In this document: in pieces, positions 55,571-62,378 of the stretch | How the letters are laid out: the number at the start of each line of letters is the position of its first letter | How positions within the stretch are numbered: the first letter of the stretch is position 1 | DNA from: Pedobacter metabolipauper | GTDB lineage: Bacteria > Bacteroidota > Bacteroidia > Sphingobacteriales > Sphingobacteriaceae | Assembly: GCF_004362715.1 (NCBI RefSeq) | Contig: NZ_SNYC01000006.1 | Location: forward strand, 372,001 to 436,000 | Length of the DNA stretch: 64,000 bases | Direction of reading: 5' to 3' | Made by a program: the position numbers and the translations under genes | The notes under the pieces: model-generated | Seen by the model: only the letters and a program-made list of their open reading frames with translations | Database searches by the model: none | Told to the model about the DNA's origin: nothing

Positions 55571-55605
55571 ATGGCTGTTCCGCTTAAGGAACAGCTATTC
55601 TTCCT
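55571..55605 (+). terminator. Terminator after the plug protein gene
   Basis: The 8-bp stem GCTGTTCC/GGAACAGC (55574-55581 and 55588-55595) and a T-rich tail. It overlaps the end of the convergent pspC gene. Confidence 0.65.
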
Positions 55606-57136
55606 CTTTTTCTTCGTGGGGATATTTACATTTTAATCCTGTATCCGTCATGATCCATTCGGTATAGTCACTGTTATCATCGTGGTCGCACCAATAATTG
55701 TATCCGTTTAAACTTCGGTTAAGATCTTTATTGATGGTTAATGAGGTTCCAACCGGCACTTTTAAGATCATTTCCAGTTCCTGGTCTCTCCAGTTCACAT
55801 TTTGCAGGATCTGCAGTGCGGAGCTAAAGTTTAATACGGCACCTTTTTGCGCAAAGTCGTAATGTGTATTCTGTGCATTCTTCAATGCATCCTCAAAGGT
55901 TCTACCCCTTGAACTGTAATTCTGGGTCATGCTTACAGAATTGTCTTCACTCTTAACCATGGTAAGCCTGATGTTTCTTGGCTGCTCATTGTTATTCCAA
56001 TCTCTATCGGTAAGGATTTTTCTTCCTTTATAACGATTTGGATCTATTTGATAACGGAGACTATCTGCACTGGTAAAGAAACGGGTACGGTCTATATTCA
56101 ATGTATAGGCCTGGTAGGGTTTAAGTTCAACTGTTTGTGAAAACTCTGCTGATTCTTTAAAATCTGATGAGATCTTTACGGCATAGAATATGGAAGATCC
56201 CATTCCAAAAAGCCAGATGATGAGCAGCACAAAAGAGAAGGTTTTATTAACCGGCCTGCTGCTAAAGGCAACGCGAACGGTAAACAATACCAGGGCCAGC
56301 AATGGAACCGCACAGGTAACAAATGCAGCAAAAGCAAGGGTGGTAAAGTATTCTTCATTGATTATATTAAATGGAAACTGATGGTACAGTGAGGCATCCC
56401 AAACGCCCAGTATTGCAATGAGCGTAATAAATAAGCTGATCAATGTAAAAGAACCCACAGCGATGATAAAAACAGCAAGTATCTTAAAGATAATCTTTCC
56501 GGTTCCATGAATAAACCGTCCGAGCGCATCAAATGAACGTGCGATAAAGCCACGGGATTCGTCAACAAAAGGATGCAGGTAACTGTTTGCAAAACCACGC
56601 AGGTTGGCTTCTTCACCACGCATAAACATCTTTTCTGTTTTAGTACCTGCTTTGGGGATCATGATCCAAAGGATCAGGTAAGCCAGAATACCGGCACCAC
56701 CAAAACCTGCAGAAACCAGAAAGGCCAATCTTACCCAACTTACACTCACATCCATATAATGCGCTAATCCGACACAAACACCTGCAATATTTGCCTTATC
56801 CGTATCCCGGTACAGTTTTTTAATTGGATTAAATGATGGCCCTGTGTATTGATCTTCTTCGGCTTCTTCAGAAGTTTCAAAATCTTTGACCGAGCCCATT
56901 TGCTCAATAATAGATTGAACATCTTCAATACTGATCGCTTGTTTTTGTTGAGCGGCTAAGATCTCGCTAAACATTTCTGCAATCCGGTTTTCAATGTCCG
57001 TTACAATCTCGAAGTTATCTGCGTTTTTGGAGAAATGAAATTTCACTTCATTTAAGTATACGGTTAACAGTTCATAGGCATCTTCTTCAATATGAATGAT
57101 GGTATTTCCTATATTTATGTTGAGTGTCTTTTTCAT
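55595..57136 (-). CDS. PspC-domain membrane protein
   Basis: A 513-residue membrane protein. The N-terminal part (about 1-90) is a short beta/alpha domain, then a PspC domain (about 105-165; KLYRDTDKANIAGVCVGLAH and YLILWIMIPKAGTK), further membrane helices (about 215-330), and a periplasmic C-terminal domain that ends in an acidic tail (EEKEEE). PspC proteins sense or stabilise the inner membrane. The gene overlaps padR by one base and is surely regulated by it. Confidence 0.9.
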   Translation of the reverse strand: MKKTLNINIGNTIIHIEEDAYELLTVYLNEVKFHFSKNADNFEIVTDIENRIAEMFSEILAAQQKQAISIEDVQSIIEQMGSVKDFETSEEAEEDQYTGPSFNPIKKLYRDTDKANIAGVCVGLAHYMDVSVSWVRLAFLVSAGFGGAGILAYLILWIMIPKAGTKTEKMFMRGEEANLRGFANSYLHPFVDESRGFIARSFDALGRFIHGTGKIIFKILAVFIIAVGSFTLISLFITLIAILGVWDASLYHQFPFNIINEEYFTTLAFAAFVTCAVPLLALVLFTVRVAFSSRPVNKTFSFVLLIIWLFGMGSSIFYAVKISSDFKESAEFSQTVELKPYQAYTLNIDRTRFFTSADSLRYQIDPNRYKGRKILTDRDWNNNEQPRNIRLTMVKSEDNSVSMTQNYSSRGRTFEDALKNAQNTHYDFAQKGAVLNFSSALQILQNVNWRDQELEMILKVPVGTSLTINKDLNRSLNGYNYWCDHDDNSDYTEWIMTDTGLKCKYPHEEKEEE

Positions 57137-57501
57137 TACTTGGTTAAATTTATGTTGATGTTTGGTGTGTTTTCAGTAACCTTCTTAGACGTATTAATCG
57201 CATAGGAAAGTTCGATCCAGGTGGTATCCAGCTGACTTAAAATAGACTTCCCGTCTTCGGTAAGCACATAATATTTTCTCGGCGGACCGGATGTAGACTC
57301 TACCCAATTGTAACTCAGCAGTCCGTTATTCTTTAAACGGGTGAGCAAGGGGTACAATGTTCCTTCAACAACCAGTAGTCTTGCCGACTTTAGTTCGGCG
57401 ATAATATCAGACGCGTAAATTTCACCTCTGGATATTATAAGTAACACACAATATTCAAGTATGCCCTTCCGCATTTGTGTCTGCGTATTTTCTGCTATCA
57501 T
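57136..57501 (-). CDS. PadR-family transcriptional regulator
   Basis: A 121-residue winged-helix repressor (start QMRKGILEYCVLLIISRGEI; wing with VVEGTLYPLLTRLKNNGLLS, SGPPRKYYVLTEDGK) followed by a short C-terminal helix and a disordered end. PadR-pspC pairs are common in Bacteroidota, and PadR members usually repress their own operon. It has a leaderless promoter and a 9-bp inverted repeat just upstream. Confidence 0.93.
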   Translation of the reverse strand: MIAENTQTQMRKGILEYCVLLIISRGEIYASDIIAELKSARLLVVEGTLYPLLTRLKNNGLLSYNWVESTSGPPRKYYVLTEDGKSILSQLDTTWIELSYAINTSKKVTENTPNININLTK

Positions 57502-57505
57502 AAAA

Positions 57506-57513
57506 CAAAGTTA
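57506..57513 (-). promoter_or_regulatory. Promoter -7 box TAACTTTG for padR-pspC (leaderless geometry)
   Basis: On the minus strand TAACTTTG, then TTTT, then ATG: four bases exactly. Confidence 0.65.
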
Positions 57514-57520
57514 TGTGTTT

Positions 57521-57553
57521 TATATAGTAATATGCAATACATAGTACTATATA
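57521..57553. promoter_or_regulatory. Candidate PadR operator (inverted repeat)
   Basis: TATATAGTA at 57521-57529 and its exact complement TACTATATA at 57545-57553, separated by 15 bases, lie at about -15 to -47 of the predicted padR start site, that is between and around the promoter elements. This is the expected place for autoregulation. Confidence 0.55.
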
Positions 57554-57925
57554 AATTTAACAATAGCATATAAATACCTGATTAACAGCATAATAATTTT
57601 ATATTAATTTTGATTAAGTTATCCGTTAATTAGAAATAATGGAATAATATCGATGGCGTATGGATTTTCCAATAGGTTTTGGATCAATCAAAAAACCGGT
57701 TTTGTAAGCGTGTACGTGTTTTTAAAAGACTGTATACGTTTTTAACAGCAGAGTTCAAAAAATAGTACAACAATTCATTACTAATGCACTAAAAATGAGG
57801 ACTAAAAGAGACAGCGCGATTGAGAAATCCACATAAAAGTAAAAGTTATTAACATTTTAACAAGACTGGAAAAATTTGGCTTAAGGTTTGTATTATGCAA
57901 AACCTACCTACTAATACATCTACCT
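57554..57925. other. Intergenic region between padR and the small membrane protein gene
   Basis: About 370 AT-rich bases. A short imperfect direct repeat (GTGTACGTGTTTTTAA and GTATACGTTTTTAA, about 57708-57745) is visible. No gene or RNA is supportable. Confidence 0.45.
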
Positions 57926-58084
57926 ATGTTAATTAAATCACCTTCCATATTTCAAGCTTTTGCAAGGCAAAAGGAAGAAGTAGAACAAAAGCCGCTAACG
58001 AGACAACAATGGATCAATGCTGACCGCCTGGTTATGTTAGCCCTTTTTTTAAGTGTAATTGCCGGCGCAATATTTTTCTCTTAA
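57926..58084 (+). CDS. Small single-pass membrane protein
   Basis: A 52-residue protein, ATG 57926, TAA 58082-58084. A charged amphipathic N-terminal half (QAFARQKEEVEQKPLTRQQW) is followed by a C-terminal helix (LVMLALFLSVIAGAIFF). The layout is that of tail-anchored small regulators. Coding is likely because of composition and a clean start, but the family is unknown. It is convergent to the DAC-like gene. Confidence 0.6.
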   Translation: MLIKSPSIFQAFARQKEEVEQKPLTRQQWINADRLVMLALFLSVIAGAIFFS

Positions 58085-58157
58085 TTATAAGATAACAGCT
58101 CGTTAACCCGGCAAATAAGGCGTACTCCTATACGCTGTTGCGAGTTATACAGCGAGA

Positions 58158-59300
58158 CTACAATAATAACGTATCAATGCGGTGGGCCTGTACTTTACCC
58201 TGGTGATCAGACCAGGTATATATGGTAAAGTGCCCGTCTTGAGAGGCCACCAGTGCCGTAGCATCATGCTGATCATGTACAAATTGTGCAGCAGAAAGAT
58301 GCCGTGTACCTCCAACCTTTGCGGGATGAACAACAATGGCTTCTCCTCCGGATATCGGCTCCGAGAATGAAAGTTCATCAATATTATCTTTTCCCTTTGC
58401 GCGTCCAATTTTTGCACCAAATGCCAGCAGCTCATATTGATTGCTGATTACTGTTGCACCATCAACCGCAGTAAGTCCGGCCAAATGTTCAACCTCACGC
58501 TTTAAGGCAGTCTGCCAAAAAATCTGACTGGATTCTTTTCTATCCTGCTGCAGCAATTTAGACAATCCGCTAAATGAAGGCTGCACATAGTATTGAACGG
58601 GCTTAATGATAGACTGAAGCCAGTTATTATTTTCATTGGGTACGATCAGTAAGGTGCCTCCCCTGGCATGGGCACGCATAGATACGGCAAGCTGGATCAT
58701 TACATTTACAGAATCATTCCAGTAAGAAGGTGCAGTAAGGTCAAGAAGCGACATCAATATTGGCGGGCAATCCGGCATGCTTGTCGTCTGCCCGTCTACC
58801 ATTTTAACCTGATCACCCTTAAGCACTGCTATATTGGTAAATTTCCCGAAGCCATAGATCCTGCGGTGCTTAATGACCAGCAAGGCTGGCTCAGATACAT
58901 CCACTACAAAGCAAAAGTTAGGAATGCTAACGGTAGTTCCCCAAATGTAAAACTGATCATCCTCAACCCAAACGCCTAAATGGATCCCTGCCCGTTCTAT
59001 TCCTGGCGCAAGCTTGGTTAAAGTACCGGGATTTAACGATAGCCGCTGCTTAAACACCAGCGGGTTTCCGGCTTGTTCAGGCGGTAAATAGGCCAATGAT
59101 ATTTTTGGAGAATGGCCTTCTTCCTTCCGTAAGCTTGCCCAAAAGGTAGCATCTAAAATTGCTTCTACAACCTTTGCTGTGGGCAAAGGGGCAAGATCAT
59201 CTTCACCACTTTTATGGGCAGCATCAAGGTGCGACGCAAAGATTGCTTCAACTCGAGGGGCAATAAGCCGTGCTGCCTGGTAGGTAGATTGATAGATCAT
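58158..59300 (-). CDS. DACNV/DisA_N-like protein, putative diadenylate cyclase
   Basis: A 380-residue protein. The C-terminal third carries diadenylate cyclase (DAC) signatures: GGTLLIVP (about 215), LTAVDGATVI with the DGA motif at 280-282, and GGTRHLSAAQ at 330-339, equivalent to GTRHRAA of DisA/CdaA. The motif therefore keeps Arg-His but has Leu-Ser for Arg-Ala. Residues 1-200 resemble the sensor region known as DACNV (PPEQAGNPLVFKQRLSL, GIHLGVWVEDDQFYIWG). If active it makes c-di-AMP. It starts 23 bases after the TonB receptor stop and is probably in that metal-regulated unit. Confidence 0.75.
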   Translation of the reverse strand: MIYQSTYQAARLIAPRVEAIFASHLDAAHKSGEDDLAPLPTAKVVEAILDATFWASLRKEEGHSPKISLAYLPPEQAGNPLVFKQRLSLNPGTLTKLAPGIERAGIHLGVWVEDDQFYIWGTTVSIPNFCFVVDVSEPALLVIKHRRIYGFGKFTNIAVLKGDQVKMVDGQTTSMPDCPPILMSLLDLTAPSYWNDSVNVMIQLAVSMRAHARGGTLLIVPNENNNWLQSIIKPVQYYVQPSFSGLSKLLQQDRKESSQIFWQTALKREVEHLAGLTAVDGATVISNQYELLAFGAKIGRAKGKDNIDELSFSEPISGGEAIVVHPAKVGGTRHLSAAQFVHDQHDATALVASQDGHFTIYTWSDHQGKVQAHRIDTLLL

Positions 59301-59323
59301 GCCATAAAGTTAAACTATTCGAT

Positions 59324-61615
59324 TTATTTTATGGTATATCTAATGCCAAAAAATCCTCTGATTCCCTGATTTGGTCCATATACATAAGTTGGGTCGAAAG
59401 TTAATCCGTACGGATTATCTGGAGTAACCATTACTTGTCCGGCAGGATCAAGCTGCACCTGTTTATCGAACGGATCATTAGCCCTGGCAATAATAAACGG
59501 ATTACCTCTGTTTGGGGTCCAGTTAAGCAGGTTTTTAACACCCCCGTATACTTCAAACCTGTTAAAGCCTGCAAAGGTAAATTGTATGTTCTGGATGCTC
59601 CATGTTTTAGAATATTCCCTTCTGGGATCAAGATCACTGAGCAATGGCAAACGCATTGGACTGTAAATATTCCCGGTATAATCCACTGTAAGTTTCAGCG
59701 GACGGATCTTATATGAAATGGCCCAGTTACCGGCAAACTTCTCTGTAAGGATTTGTTCTTTCTTTATTCCGGCCTCATAGGTAGCTACATCCTGATAGGT
59801 TGCCCCTAAAATCAGTTTTAGGCCGTTGCTAAACGTTACATCAACATTAGTACTTAAGCCCTTGCTTACGGCGTAGCCATCCAGGTTGTCATAGATGATC
59901 TTATTTGGGTCAATGTCGAAATTACCAATAATCCTGTTGTTAAAATAGGTGTAAAAGGCAGAAGATTCAACCCCAATAAATGTACCTCCTTCTGTATACA
60001 TCTTTTTAAGGTAATTGAGATTTACGTTATAGGTTTTTTCGGGTTTAAGCTCCCCGGTAATCTCTACAGATCTTGCACCGGTAAGTGCTGCATGGTCTTC
60101 TGTAAAGATATTTACCACTCTAAAGCCGGTACCTGCATTTAACCTTAGAATGTTATTTTCATTGATGCTCCATTTATAGGCTGCCCTGGGTGTAAATATA
60201 TTGCCATGAACAGAGTTATAATCATACCTGAAACCAGCCAGTACCTTGTGTTTTTCTGAAAGGGTAATCTCATCCTGTACAAAAAGGCCGGGCAGCCAGG
60301 TATTCTTTGCAATTACCTGATTAAGGCCGGTAGTTGCAGCAGTATTGTCGTCATAAAAAGTATACCTCAAGGCAGCACCTACCAACAGGTCGTGGTTATC
60401 AATCCGCTTGTCCCACGTTAGCTGGGTAAAGCCAATTTTTTGTTCTGCAATGTAAGACGTTGTGCCATACCGGCTATCCTGATTGTGTTCATTGTAAGAG
60501 AATGCGAGGAAAAGCTTCTCTTTAACCGGCAACTGGTAATTACCGATCAGTTCCCACCGGTTGGTATAGATACTTTCTCCATAAACCTGATCGCCGCCCC
60601 TGAAAGATTTGTTCCACTGCATCTCGCCGCCCCAGCGGTTTTCATACATATACCGTGCTCCTAAACTAAATACCCGGTCTTCTTTTCGCTTAAAAGTCCA
60701 TTTTTGAAAGATAGAGATGCGGTCCTGCAAGGTAACATCGGTAAAGTTATCGTGATTATGATCTACCGGGTTATTGTACAAGAAGTAGTTTAACCCGGTT
60801 AGTACAGTCGCTTTTTTACCGGCATTAAATTTAAAGCCCAGATCTGCATTGAGTTCCTTATACGATGTTGAAAAGACATCTGCAGAAATTAAGGCCGCCT
60901 TTTCTGGCTTTTTGGTAATGATGTTAATCAATCCGCCTACCGCTTCGCTCCCGTATAAAGAAGAAGCCGGACCTTTAACAATCTCAATCTGCTCAACCAG
61001 GGAATTCGGAATCCCGGAAAGGCCATACACGGTAGACAGGCTGCTAACAATTGGCATTCCATCAATCAATATCATGGTGTACGGACCTTCGAGGCCATTG
61101 ATATGAATATCACCGGTGTTGCAAATATTACAGTTTAGCTGTGGTCTAACACCGTTCACATTTTGAAGCGCATCAAAAATGCTTGGTGTAGGGTTCATTT
61201 TAAAATATCCGGGTGTGTAAACCTCTACCGGAACCGGGCTTTCTAAACGGTTTACTGCTTTCAATGTTCCGGTAACTACAATTTCATTCAGGTTATTCTG
61301 GAAGTTGCTCAAGTCAAAGTCCAATACTTTAGACTCTCCTTTTTTGAGTTCCAGGGTGATGATCCGGTTTCTAAACCCAACCGCCGATGCCTGAACTTTG
61401 TAAGTTCCTTCCGGAATGCTGCCAAGGTTATACCGGCCAATGCTATCTGTTTTAACCACAAATAAGGTTCCCTGAATGGCAATAGTAGCCGAGGGTACAG
61501 CCTCGCCTTCTGAAATTACCTTTCCAGTAACCATACCGTTCTGGGCACTGGCTGTTAGCGTAACCAGCATAAAAATTAAGAGATTGAATAGTTTAAAGTA
61601 ATTGTTCTTTATCAT
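59324..61615 (-). CDS. TonB-dependent outer-membrane receptor
   Basis: A 763-residue receptor. Signal peptide (LLIFMLVTLTASAQ), carboxypeptidase-regulatory-like domain (about 28-110; GEAVPSATIAIQGTLFVVKT), plug domain (about 120-235; SIFDALQNVNGVRPQLNCNI with a CxxC, TMILIDGMPIVSSLSTVYGL, QIEIVKGPASSLYGSEAVGG) and a 22-strand-type barrel ending GFFGIRYTIK. It is divergent from a DtxR/MntR-type regulator, with an iron-box-like site in its promoter, so it likely imports an iron or manganese complex. Followed by the DAC-like gene. Confidence 0.92.
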   Translation of the reverse strand: MIKNNYFKLFNLLIFMLVTLTASAQNGMVTGKVISEGEAVPSATIAIQGTLFVVKTDSIGRYNLGSIPEGTYKVQASAVGFRNRIITLELKKGESKVLDFDLSNFQNNLNEIVVTGTLKAVNRLESPVPVEVYTPGYFKMNPTPSIFDALQNVNGVRPQLNCNICNTGDIHINGLEGPYTMILIDGMPIVSSLSTVYGLSGIPNSLVEQIEIVKGPASSLYGSEAVGGLINIITKKPEKAALISADVFSTSYKELNADLGFKFNAGKKATVLTGLNYFLYNNPVDHNHDNFTDVTLQDRISIFQKWTFKRKEDRVFSLGARYMYENRWGGEMQWNKSFRGGDQVYGESIYTNRWELIGNYQLPVKEKLFLAFSYNEHNQDSRYGTTSYIAEQKIGFTQLTWDKRIDNHDLLVGAALRYTFYDDNTAATTGLNQVIAKNTWLPGLFVQDEITLSEKHKVLAGFRYDYNSVHGNIFTPRAAYKWSINENNILRLNAGTGFRVVNIFTEDHAALTGARSVEITGELKPEKTYNVNLNYLKKMYTEGGTFIGVESSAFYTYFNNRIIGNFDIDPNKIIYDNLDGYAVSKGLSTNVDVTFSNGLKLILGATYQDVATYEAGIKKEQILTEKFAGNWAISYKIRPLKLTVDYTGNIYSPMRLPLLSDLDPRREYSKTWSIQNIQFTFAGFNRFEVYGGVKNLLNWTPNRGNPFIIARANDPFDKQVQLDPAGQVMVTPDNPYGLTFDPTYVYGPNQGIRGFFGIRYTIK

Positions 61616-61618
61616 AGT

Positions 61619-61637
61619 TTTAATTAGCCTAATTTTA
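61619..61637. promoter_or_regulatory. Second DtxR-box-like site
   Basis: Core TTAGCCTAA at 61624-61632 with partial flanks (12 of 19 against TTAGGTTAGGCTAACCTAA). It lies in the untranslated leader of the TonB receptor, 40 bp from the better site. Confidence 0.5.
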
Positions 61638-61649
61638 ATAATAACATCA

Positions 61650-61681
61650 CAAAACTATAAAAGTTAGACTAACCTAACAAA
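61650..61681 (-). promoter_or_regulatory. Promoter of the TonB receptor
   Basis: On the minus strand TTTG (61678-61681), a 20-base spacer and TAGTTTTG (61650-61657) match the full Bacteroidota promoter. The leader to the ATG is about 30 bases. Confidence 0.75.
61659..61677. promoter_or_regulatory. DtxR/IdeR-type iron box inside the TonB receptor promoter
   Basis: The 19 bases match the DtxR consensus TTAGGTTAGGCTAACCTAA at 15 positions, with GTTAG-A-CTAACCTAA intact. It fills most of the -33/-7 spacer, so a bound repressor would block polymerase. Confidence 0.7.
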
Positions 61682-61703
61682 TAAAATATGATATATATTA
61701 TTT

Positions 61704-61711
61704 TATATTTG
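61704..61711 (+). promoter_or_regulatory. Promoter -7 box TATATTTG for the metal regulator (leaderless geometry)
   Basis: TATATTTG, then TGCC, then ATG: four bases exactly. The iron box lies about 27 bases upstream of it. Confidence 0.65.
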
Positions 61712-61715
61712 TGCC

Positions 61716-62378
61716 ATGCTATCTTATACAGAAGAAAACTATTTAAAGGCCTTACTGAAATTAAGCTTTCAAAACGAGGACAAACCAGAGGCAGGAACCA
61801 ACGAAATGGCGGCTTATTTGGGTGTAAAGCCCGCTACGGCCACAGATATGCTAAAAAAGCTAAAGGAGAAAGACCTCGTTACCTATCAGAAGTATGGTAA
61901 GATCCTGTTAACGGATACGGGTAAGAAAAATGCCATTGCTATTTTAAGAAAGCACCGTTTATGGGAAACTTTCCTGTACGAAAAGTTAGATTTTAGCTGG
62001 GATGAGGTTCATGAAGTTGCCGAACAGCTGGAGCATATCCAGTCTGCAAAGCTGGTAGACAAGCTGGAGGAGTTTCTTAATTTCCCGGAGTTTGACCCGC
62101 ATGGCGATCCCATTCCAAAGGCAAATGGTGAGATCCCTATCCTGGCCAAAACACTACTTTCGGCCTTAGAACCAGGCAGCAGTTGTAAGGTTGCTGCAGT
62201 TAAAGACACCTCCACGTTGTTTCTTCAATATTTGCAAAAGCTACAGATCACCATTGGTACAAAAATCAAGATACTGGAGGTCATTGCTTTTGACGGATCA
62301 TTGAGCATACAAATTGAAGATGAAGAACCGAGAACGGTATCGATGAAGTTTGCCGATAGTTTATTTGTACAGAGATAA
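61716..62378 (+). CDS. DtxR/MntR-family metal-dependent transcriptional repressor
   Basis: A 220-residue regulator. An N-terminal winged helix (YTEENYLKALLKLSFQNEDK, MAAYLGVKPATATDMLKKL) is followed by the metal-binding and dimer domain (RKHRLWETFLYEKLDFSWDE, EHIQSAKLVDKLEEF, FDPHGDPIP) and a FeoA/SH3-like C-terminal domain (about 145-220). Ligand-type residues His, Glu and Asp are in the usual places. It is divergent from the TonB receptor with DtxR-like boxes in between, so it most likely represses that unit with Fe(II) or Mn(II). Confidence 0.93.
   Translation: MLSYTEENYLKALLKLSFQNEDKPEAGTNEMAAYLGVKPATATDMLKKLKEKDLVTYQKYGKILLTDTGKKNAIAILRKHRLWETFLYEKLDFSWDEVHEVAEQLEHIQSAKLVDKLEEFLNFPEFDPHGDPIPKANGEIPILAKTLLSALEPGSSCKVAAVKDTSTLFLQYLQKLQITIGTKIKILEVIAFDGSLSIQIEDEEPRTVSMKFADSLFVQR

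Follow-up and report, generated by a model that had tools for sequence, protein, structure and literature searches.

Does a diadenylate cyclase (DAC)-like gene placed directly behind a metal-regulated receptor gene tie dinucleotide signalling to metal supply, or does it act independently of that neighbour? The question is raised by a 64,000-nucleotide stretch of the Pedobacter metabolipauper genome (NCBI RefSeq assembly GCF_004362715.1, contig NZ_SNYC01000006.1, positions 372,001 to 436,000), referred to here as the window. Its minus strand encodes a 380-residue protein that joins a DACNV domain to a C-terminal DAC-like half, and the gene follows that of a TonB-dependent receptor. A sequence-only reading of the window had proposed a link between metal supply and cyclic di-AMP (c-di-AMP), or another dinucleotide, through one operon. 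The observation behind that proposal is confirmed, as the DACNV-DAC gene does lie directly behind a TonB receptor gene, but the genomic context was overread. The explanation favoured here, to which a probability of roughly 0.55 is assigned, is that the protein is a stand-alone member of the DAC superfamily, a nucleotide cyclase working alongside the canonical CdaA; the same estimate includes the view that the receptor and its regulator form a separate metal-uptake unit beside the cyclase.

According to this explanation, the cyclase would be soluble, and most of its transcription would start at its own promoter and give a leaderless mRNA that begins with the A of its ATG, with some read-through from the receptor gene in one clade only. 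The N half would be a DAC fold that has degenerated and packs against the C half as a built-in pseudo-partner, which would scaffold or gate the reaction rather than act as a separate sensor. The C half would bind a nucleoside triphosphate together with a divalent metal ion (Mg2+ is probable, as for DisA), and either two C halves or one C half together with the pseudo-half would form a cyclic dinucleotide, with c-di-AMP as the likeliest product. The relevant parts of the gene are the following.

58158-59300, minus strand: DACNV-DAC gene, 380 amino acids (open reading frame; Pfam PF21751, E 1.5e-33).
58773-59300, minus strand: N-terminal half, residues 1-176, called "probable sensor domain DACNV" in Pfam; predicted DAC-like fold, no DGA or RHR.
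58161-58772, minus strand: C-terminal DAC half, residues 177-380 (from the full-length model compared with DisA).
58455-58463, minus strand: DGA motif, residues 280-282 (D and G in 131/131, A in 128/131 distinct sequences).
58299-58310, minus strand: GTRH, residues 331-334, followed by Leu335-Ser336 (R333 and H334 in 131/131).
58236-58244, minus strand: SQD, residues 353-355, placed by eye at the position of (V/I)SEE (131/131; motif name from PMC7288161).

The protein was assigned by its domains and predicted structure. In a Pfam search, DACNV (PF21751) scored 115.3 bits, above its cut-off of 27. An AlphaFold2 model of the full-length protein was built from 47 sequences, with a predicted local distance difference test (pLDDT) of 81.8 and a predicted template modelling score (pTM) of 0.81. 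Over residues of about 174-377, the best match in VIA-align was M. tuberculosis DisA (9y4s; Z 12.9, root mean square deviation (rmsd) 2.4, 133 aligned residues) and CdaA entries reached Z of about 10, results that do not exclude families absent from the listing. Foldseek with the same model returned no match under E 1e-3, and phmmer of the whole protein against the PDB returned none at E 10. A profile of the C half scored 26.4 against CdaA of the same bacterial family, above all 35 decoys (maximum 18.7), with a probability of 7.7%. The predicted structure shows the C half to have a DAC fold. The highest mean hydropathy over 19 residues is 1.47, in favour of a soluble protein.

The N half is the part for which the Pfam name and the model suggest different things. 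When residues 1-178 were modelled in isolation (pLDDT 83.9, pTM 0.84), VIA aligned 764 chains, 69 of them at Z 5 or more. All 39 listed entries at or above this value are diadenylate cyclases with Z between 5.0 and 7.8, and the best other entry reached 2.6. The closest is 2fb5 (Z 7.8, rmsd 3.0, 104 aligned residues), with the remaining DAC entries at 5.0-7.1. A Foldseek search of 350,542 chains likewise put DACs in its top four places, at E 0.17-0.34 and with no match under 1e-3. On 2fb5 and MsDisA the two halves cover almost the same segment, and by eye the order of structural elements in the N half agrees, except for a hairpin (130-146) in place of the RHR helix. Because the structural matches at Z 5 or more are exclusively to DACs, the protein may consist of two DACs in tandem, the first of them degenerate. 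The N half (residues 35-170) is also more conserved than the C half (201-380), with mean top-residue fractions of 0.757 versus 0.685 for 69 sequences and 0.763 versus 0.696 for 136, which on these alignments is not what one would expect for a free-running sensor.

Several results weigh against reading the N half as a DAC. Profile scores of the N half against the C half (16.1) and against CdaA (15.3) fall within the decoy range, which extends to 31.4. No PDB chain was found by hmmsearch with the N-half profile, a weak test because the profile of the whole protein also misses the DAC chains, and a windowed comparison of the two halves gave P 0.04 by one scoring scheme and 0.76 by another. A Z below 8 is middling by the standard of the tool and can reflect a mere common arrangement of elements, the DAC entries are mainly repeat depositions of a few proteins, and VIA aligned only the chains that Foldseek had ranked highest. 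Thus hmmsearch, profile comparison and window score yielded no support at the sequence level, and the tandem reading rests on structure prediction. Overall, a DAC-like fold of the N half is considered likely from the models.

One alternative is an active cyclase in which an ordinary ligand-sensing domain, with no relation to DAC, forms the N half. It agrees with the Pfam name and with the lack of sequence similarity between the halves, as well as with Foldseek E values above 0.1. It is nevertheless rated improbable, since it sits poorly with a list of 39 entries that are all DACs before the score drops to 2.6, with two halves that align to almost identical parts of 2fb5 and MsDisA, and with an N half whose conservation equals or exceeds that of the C half. 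A diadenylate cyclase works only with two of its domains facing each other. A catalytic pseudo-heterodimer of one live and one dead half is a tentative proposal drawn from the models. Equally speculative is its extension to the whole family, in which DACNV would be a decayed DAC domain and not a sensor, and the protein an intramolecular pseudo-heterodimer that runs an asymmetric DAC reaction in parallel to CdaA within one cell, with phosphate contacts that differ and a product that is perhaps not c-di-AMP. If true, one chain combining a live with a degenerate DAC fold would bring a pseudo-heterodimer layout to this enzyme class, each half-site could be tested separately for its role, and most genomes of one bacterial family would carry two DAC-type proteins. 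No study of the DACNV family was found by a full-text literature search, although the tandem reading may still be in print.

The active site of the C half was compared across 131 distinct sequences of the main subfamily and in a set of 69. D280, G281, K297, G331, R333, H334, S353, Q354 and D355 are invariant, and position 332 is Thr in 126 sequences and Ser in five. The residues of the nucleotide site (DG, TRH or SRH, SQD) have thereby been preserved throughout. The sequence-only reading had noted a preserved DGA and GTRH with Leu-Ser in place of Arg-Ala; all three hold, at residues 280-282, 331-334 and 335-336. Position 335 is Leu in 95 sequences, Phe in 32, Met in two and Ile in two, and never Arg, so Leu-Ser is not a local defect; a mutation specific to the window is rejected on both the 69 and the 131 sequences, in which the Arg replacement is family-wide. 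In the motif GxRHRxA the G, R, H and A are present and the last Arg is Leu in this protein, which is therefore filed as a DAC-fold relative and not as a canonical DAC. The ten ATP-site residues of Listeria CdaA, as given in PMC7288161, include the Asp of DGA, Thr-Arg-His, the conserved Ser and a metal-binding Glu, and this ten-residue list does not contain the last Arg of RHR.

Other evidence speaks against an active enzyme. The DAC family PF02457 scored 16.5 bits, below its cut-off of 27, and exchange of RHR for AAA abolished ATP binding and activity of M. tuberculosis DacA according to PMC3328451, so that the loss of one Arg could inactivate the protein. Another alternative is a catalytically dead nucleotide-binding receptor, in which the DAC fold would sense ATP or a dinucleotide and make none. 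The third Arg of RHR is absent in all 131 sequences, SEE is changed to SQD, the PF02457 cut-off is missed and a canonical CdaA already exists in the genome, all of which count in favour of this alternative. The invariance of D280, G281, R333, H334, S353 and D355 does not favour it, nor does the fact that the lost Arg is not among the ten ATP-site residues in PMC7288161, and it is regarded as doubtful. Judged from its sequence, the protein is a plausible candidate for cyclase activity.

The residue before DGA bears on the metal. Position 279 is Val in 98 and Ile in 33 of the sequences, whereas a His at this place marks the Mn/Co-dependent CdaA type, as stated in PMC12974146. Mg2+ as in DisA is probable for the DACNV-DAC protein because of this Val/Ile. 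A genome-wide PF02457 search returned only the CdaA locus, and that CdaA has HDGA; by the His rule the Mn-type enzyme of this genome is thus CdaA and not the DACNV-DAC protein. The invariant Lys297, which by eye corresponds roughly to Tyr187 of CdaA, was considered for a role in the base pocket. This was not used as evidence, because the Tyr is not conserved among DACs (PMC6368335) and the genome's own CdaA lacks it.

The occurrence of the gene was then surveyed. A relative is present in 34 of 36 genomes of the same genus, including the genome analysed here, and the two genomes without one are 80-81% complete; among 23 genomes of other families no relative was found. DACNV occurs in 83 of 121 genomes of the family and is missing from a number of small genomes, in 8 of 296 genomes of a phylum sample (seven of the eight from the same family) and in 16 of 395 of a class sample. 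PF02457 exceeded its cut-off in 117 of the 121 family genomes, 116 times at a single place and once as a split match. Taken together with the 83 genomes that have DACNV, this makes DACNV-DAC an extra cyclase-like gene. In Pedobacter it is almost a core gene, and across its family it is common. In one single-contig genome (L088, 7227-8365; G009) the cyclase is split into open reading frames of 217 and 163 amino acids by a frameshift or sequencing error. Pedobacter-like cyclases were also seen in L155, titled Flavobacteriaceae, and in L188, titled Acidobacteria and without an intact open reading frame, both possibly mislabelled or mis-binned. An anti-phage system or mobile element was considered and set aside, with no PADLOC match at E 0.1 and no plasmid match at E 1e-5, and no relative was present among six pattern-matching stretches of viral contigs.

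The surroundings of the gene contain the following further features.

59305-59312, minus strand: TAACTTTA, -7-like element spanning -12 to -5 relative to the ATG of the DAC gene (pattern TAHHTT).
59324-61615, minus strand: TonB-dependent receptor, 763 amino acids (open reading frame; Pfam domains).
61681-61650, minus strand: receptor promoter, TTTG, 20 bases, TAGTTTTG, in the Bacteroidota -33/-7 arrangement (consensus from PMC6847099).
61663-61678: palindromic DtxR/MntR-type operator GTTAGGTTAGTCTAAC, between the -33 (TTTG) and -7 (TAGTTTTG) elements.
61716-62378, plus strand: DtxR/MntR-family regulator with a FeoA domain, 220 amino acids, divergent from the receptor (Pfam/NCBIfam).
58135-58120, minus strand: terminator-like hairpin 3' of the DAC gene, not above chance.

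The receptor and cyclase genes lie on the same strand and are separated by 23 bp (59301-59323), as the sequence-only reading had said. A terminator scan of 57500-61800 found a single site, which lies 3' of the DAC gene; shuffled sequences gave 3.2 on average. None was found in the gap, in agreement with the sequence-only reading. For comparison, a scan of named genomes gave at least 541 stretches encoding relatives, the best 80 of which were retained; L188 was dropped as it has no intact open reading frame and the window was added, which leaves 80 rows (79 named relatives and the window). A receptor lies directly upstream in 20 rows (including L122, labelled by hand as its contig ends inside the receptor), a directly divergent regulator without receptor in three, gene family C4 in ten and other genes in 47. 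All 20 receptor rows form, with the three regulator-only rows, a single Pedobacter clade of 23 (99/98). Where the junction gap could be measured, at 19 loci, it is between 21 and 36 bp long; L122 is cut by its contig end. The survey of DACNV-DAC genes behind TonB receptors suggested by the sequence-only reading thus bears out the arrangement at 20 of 80 loci and confines it to one clade. The regulator-only rows (L115, L116 and L117) occupy two places in the tree and have kept the cyclase with receptor and operator absent, and the simplest account of the junction is a single gain followed by two losses. Presence or absence of the receptor makes no difference to the retention of the gene, which shows the cyclase to be independent of the receptor arrangement.

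Other loci of the set vary in their surroundings. L115 has an apparent scar of the receptor 3' end (its last codons) before the cyclase. In L141, regulator, receptor and operator are grouped, and the receptor lies 4.7 kb to 2.2 kb before the cyclase with other open reading frames between. Neighbours in other genera were scanned at 17 loci, one or two per genus, with 62 of 68 selected proteins (six were left out); 70 families resulted at E 1e-5, and none of the 25 most frequent occurred in more than three proteins. The same-strand genes downstream of the cyclase in the window (121 and 513 amino acids; 55595-57501) have homologues in 46 and 47 of 81 cyclase loci.

The cyclase appears to have a predicted leaderless promoter of its own. 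In 70 of the 80 loci, among them 20/20 receptor loci and 3/3 regulator-only loci, a TAHHTT element begins precisely 12 bp ahead of the cyclase ATG, whatever gene lies upstream; its commonest forms are TAACTTTA (36), TAAATTCG (18) and TAACTTAG (14). Counted over distinct upstream sequences, it occurs at this position for 62 of 72 cyclases, compared with 36 of 582 further genes from these loci. The F. johnsoniae -7 element, as reported in PMC6847099, has T-12, A-11, T-8, T-7, T-6 and G-5 relative to the start site. Because that element spans -12 to -5, the predicted start for the cyclase is the A of the ATG. Against such a promoter stand the lack of the consensus final G and of a clear -33 TTTG in the window, the ten loci without TAHHTT at -12, and its occurrence in just 3 of 30 distinct upstreams of other genera, where three further loci were dropped as the start motif was not found. 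Moreover, the pattern was written after the alignments had been inspected, and the loci are related.

The receptor contains the Pfam domains Plug, beta-barrel and CarbopepD_reg_2, and of all solved structures it most closely matches the colicin I receptor (E 6.9e-24). Palindromes of the GTTAG-N6-CTAAC type bind DtxR-family proteins. This symmetric pattern lies between regulator and receptor in 19/19 receptor loci with the regulator in view, and a TTTG/TAnnTTTG pair in 16 of the 19; neither occurs in the three regulator-only loci, and no operator was found within 300 bp of the cyclase in any of the 60 non-junction loci. An exact pattern search with GTTAGRYTNNYCTAAC returned the operator as its sole match in the genome. 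A wider regulon was rejected, as matches with one mismatch numbered two forward and three reverse versus 12 and 11 for a reversed-pattern control. The regulator exceeds the cut-offs of both Fe_dep_repress and Fe_dep_repr_C and is of the DtxR/MntR type, and it does not reach the NCBIfam MntR equivalog cut-offs (best 160.7 of 350). A second DtxR/MntR-type regulator, 49% identical to it, is encoded at G000:C7:169885-170517. The sequence-only reading called the receptor metal-regulated, and with a DtxR-type operator in its promoter and the divergent regulator it looks so from the sequence.

The same strand, the 23-bp gap without terminator, the operator upstream and the kept junction make read-through into the cyclase possible. 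The operon-like arrangement proposed earlier is borne out to this extent, by strand, gap, operator and the junction at 20 of 80 loci, whereas the functional link between metal and dinucleotide is not, given a junction confined to one clade and a cyclase that persists without receptor or operator. That the two genes are co-transcribed from a DtxR/MntR-controlled promoter, with cyclase dose following metal supply, is unlikely: the short same-strand gap with no terminator found, its range of 21 to 36 bp over 19 loci and the operator within the receptor promoter speak for it, but the arrangement is that of one clade in which three of 23 rows have retained the cyclase although receptor and operator are missing, the operator is absent near the cyclase in 60/60 other loci, a promoter-like element precedes the cyclase in 20/20 junction loci, and the His typical of the Mn-using CdaA type (PMC12974146) is missing from the cyclase. 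A metal-dinucleotide operon as the ancestral or obligatory function is rejected on the one-clade junction, the receptor-free loci and the cyclase's own promoter-like element. Adjacency to a metal-controlled receptor need not imply metal control.

Among known systems, the stand-alone cyclase favoured here belongs with the DACNV-DAC proteins (PF21751 and PF02457): it has the same domain pair, its PF21751 score is well above the cut-off as in the scanned relatives, and no difference was found. A second DACNV subfamily (441-445 amino acids, in 6 of 121 family genomes) shares the DACNV domain and a C half with SQD, but, in the five members compared, has an intact RHR and DGV for DGA; members were seen at L106 7185-8510, L107 7559-8884, L108 6088-7422 and L068 532-1869. 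With CdaA the protein shares the DAC fold, DGA, T/S-R-H and the conserved Ser, whereas Val/Ile replaces the His before DGA, mostly Leu/Phe replaces the last Arg, SQD stands for SEE and a DACNV half is added in front. DisA is the best structural match of the modelled C half (Z 12.9) and also lacks the His before DGA, as described in PMC12974146; it differs in an intact RHR and in having C-terminal domains of its own, where the window protein has its DACNV half in front. The gene is an unexceptional representative of its curated family but offers an interesting lead on structure, and what it adds to the knowledge of DACNV-DAC proteins is a predicted DAC-like DACNV half, the family-wide loss of the third Arg of RHR and a putative promoter element.

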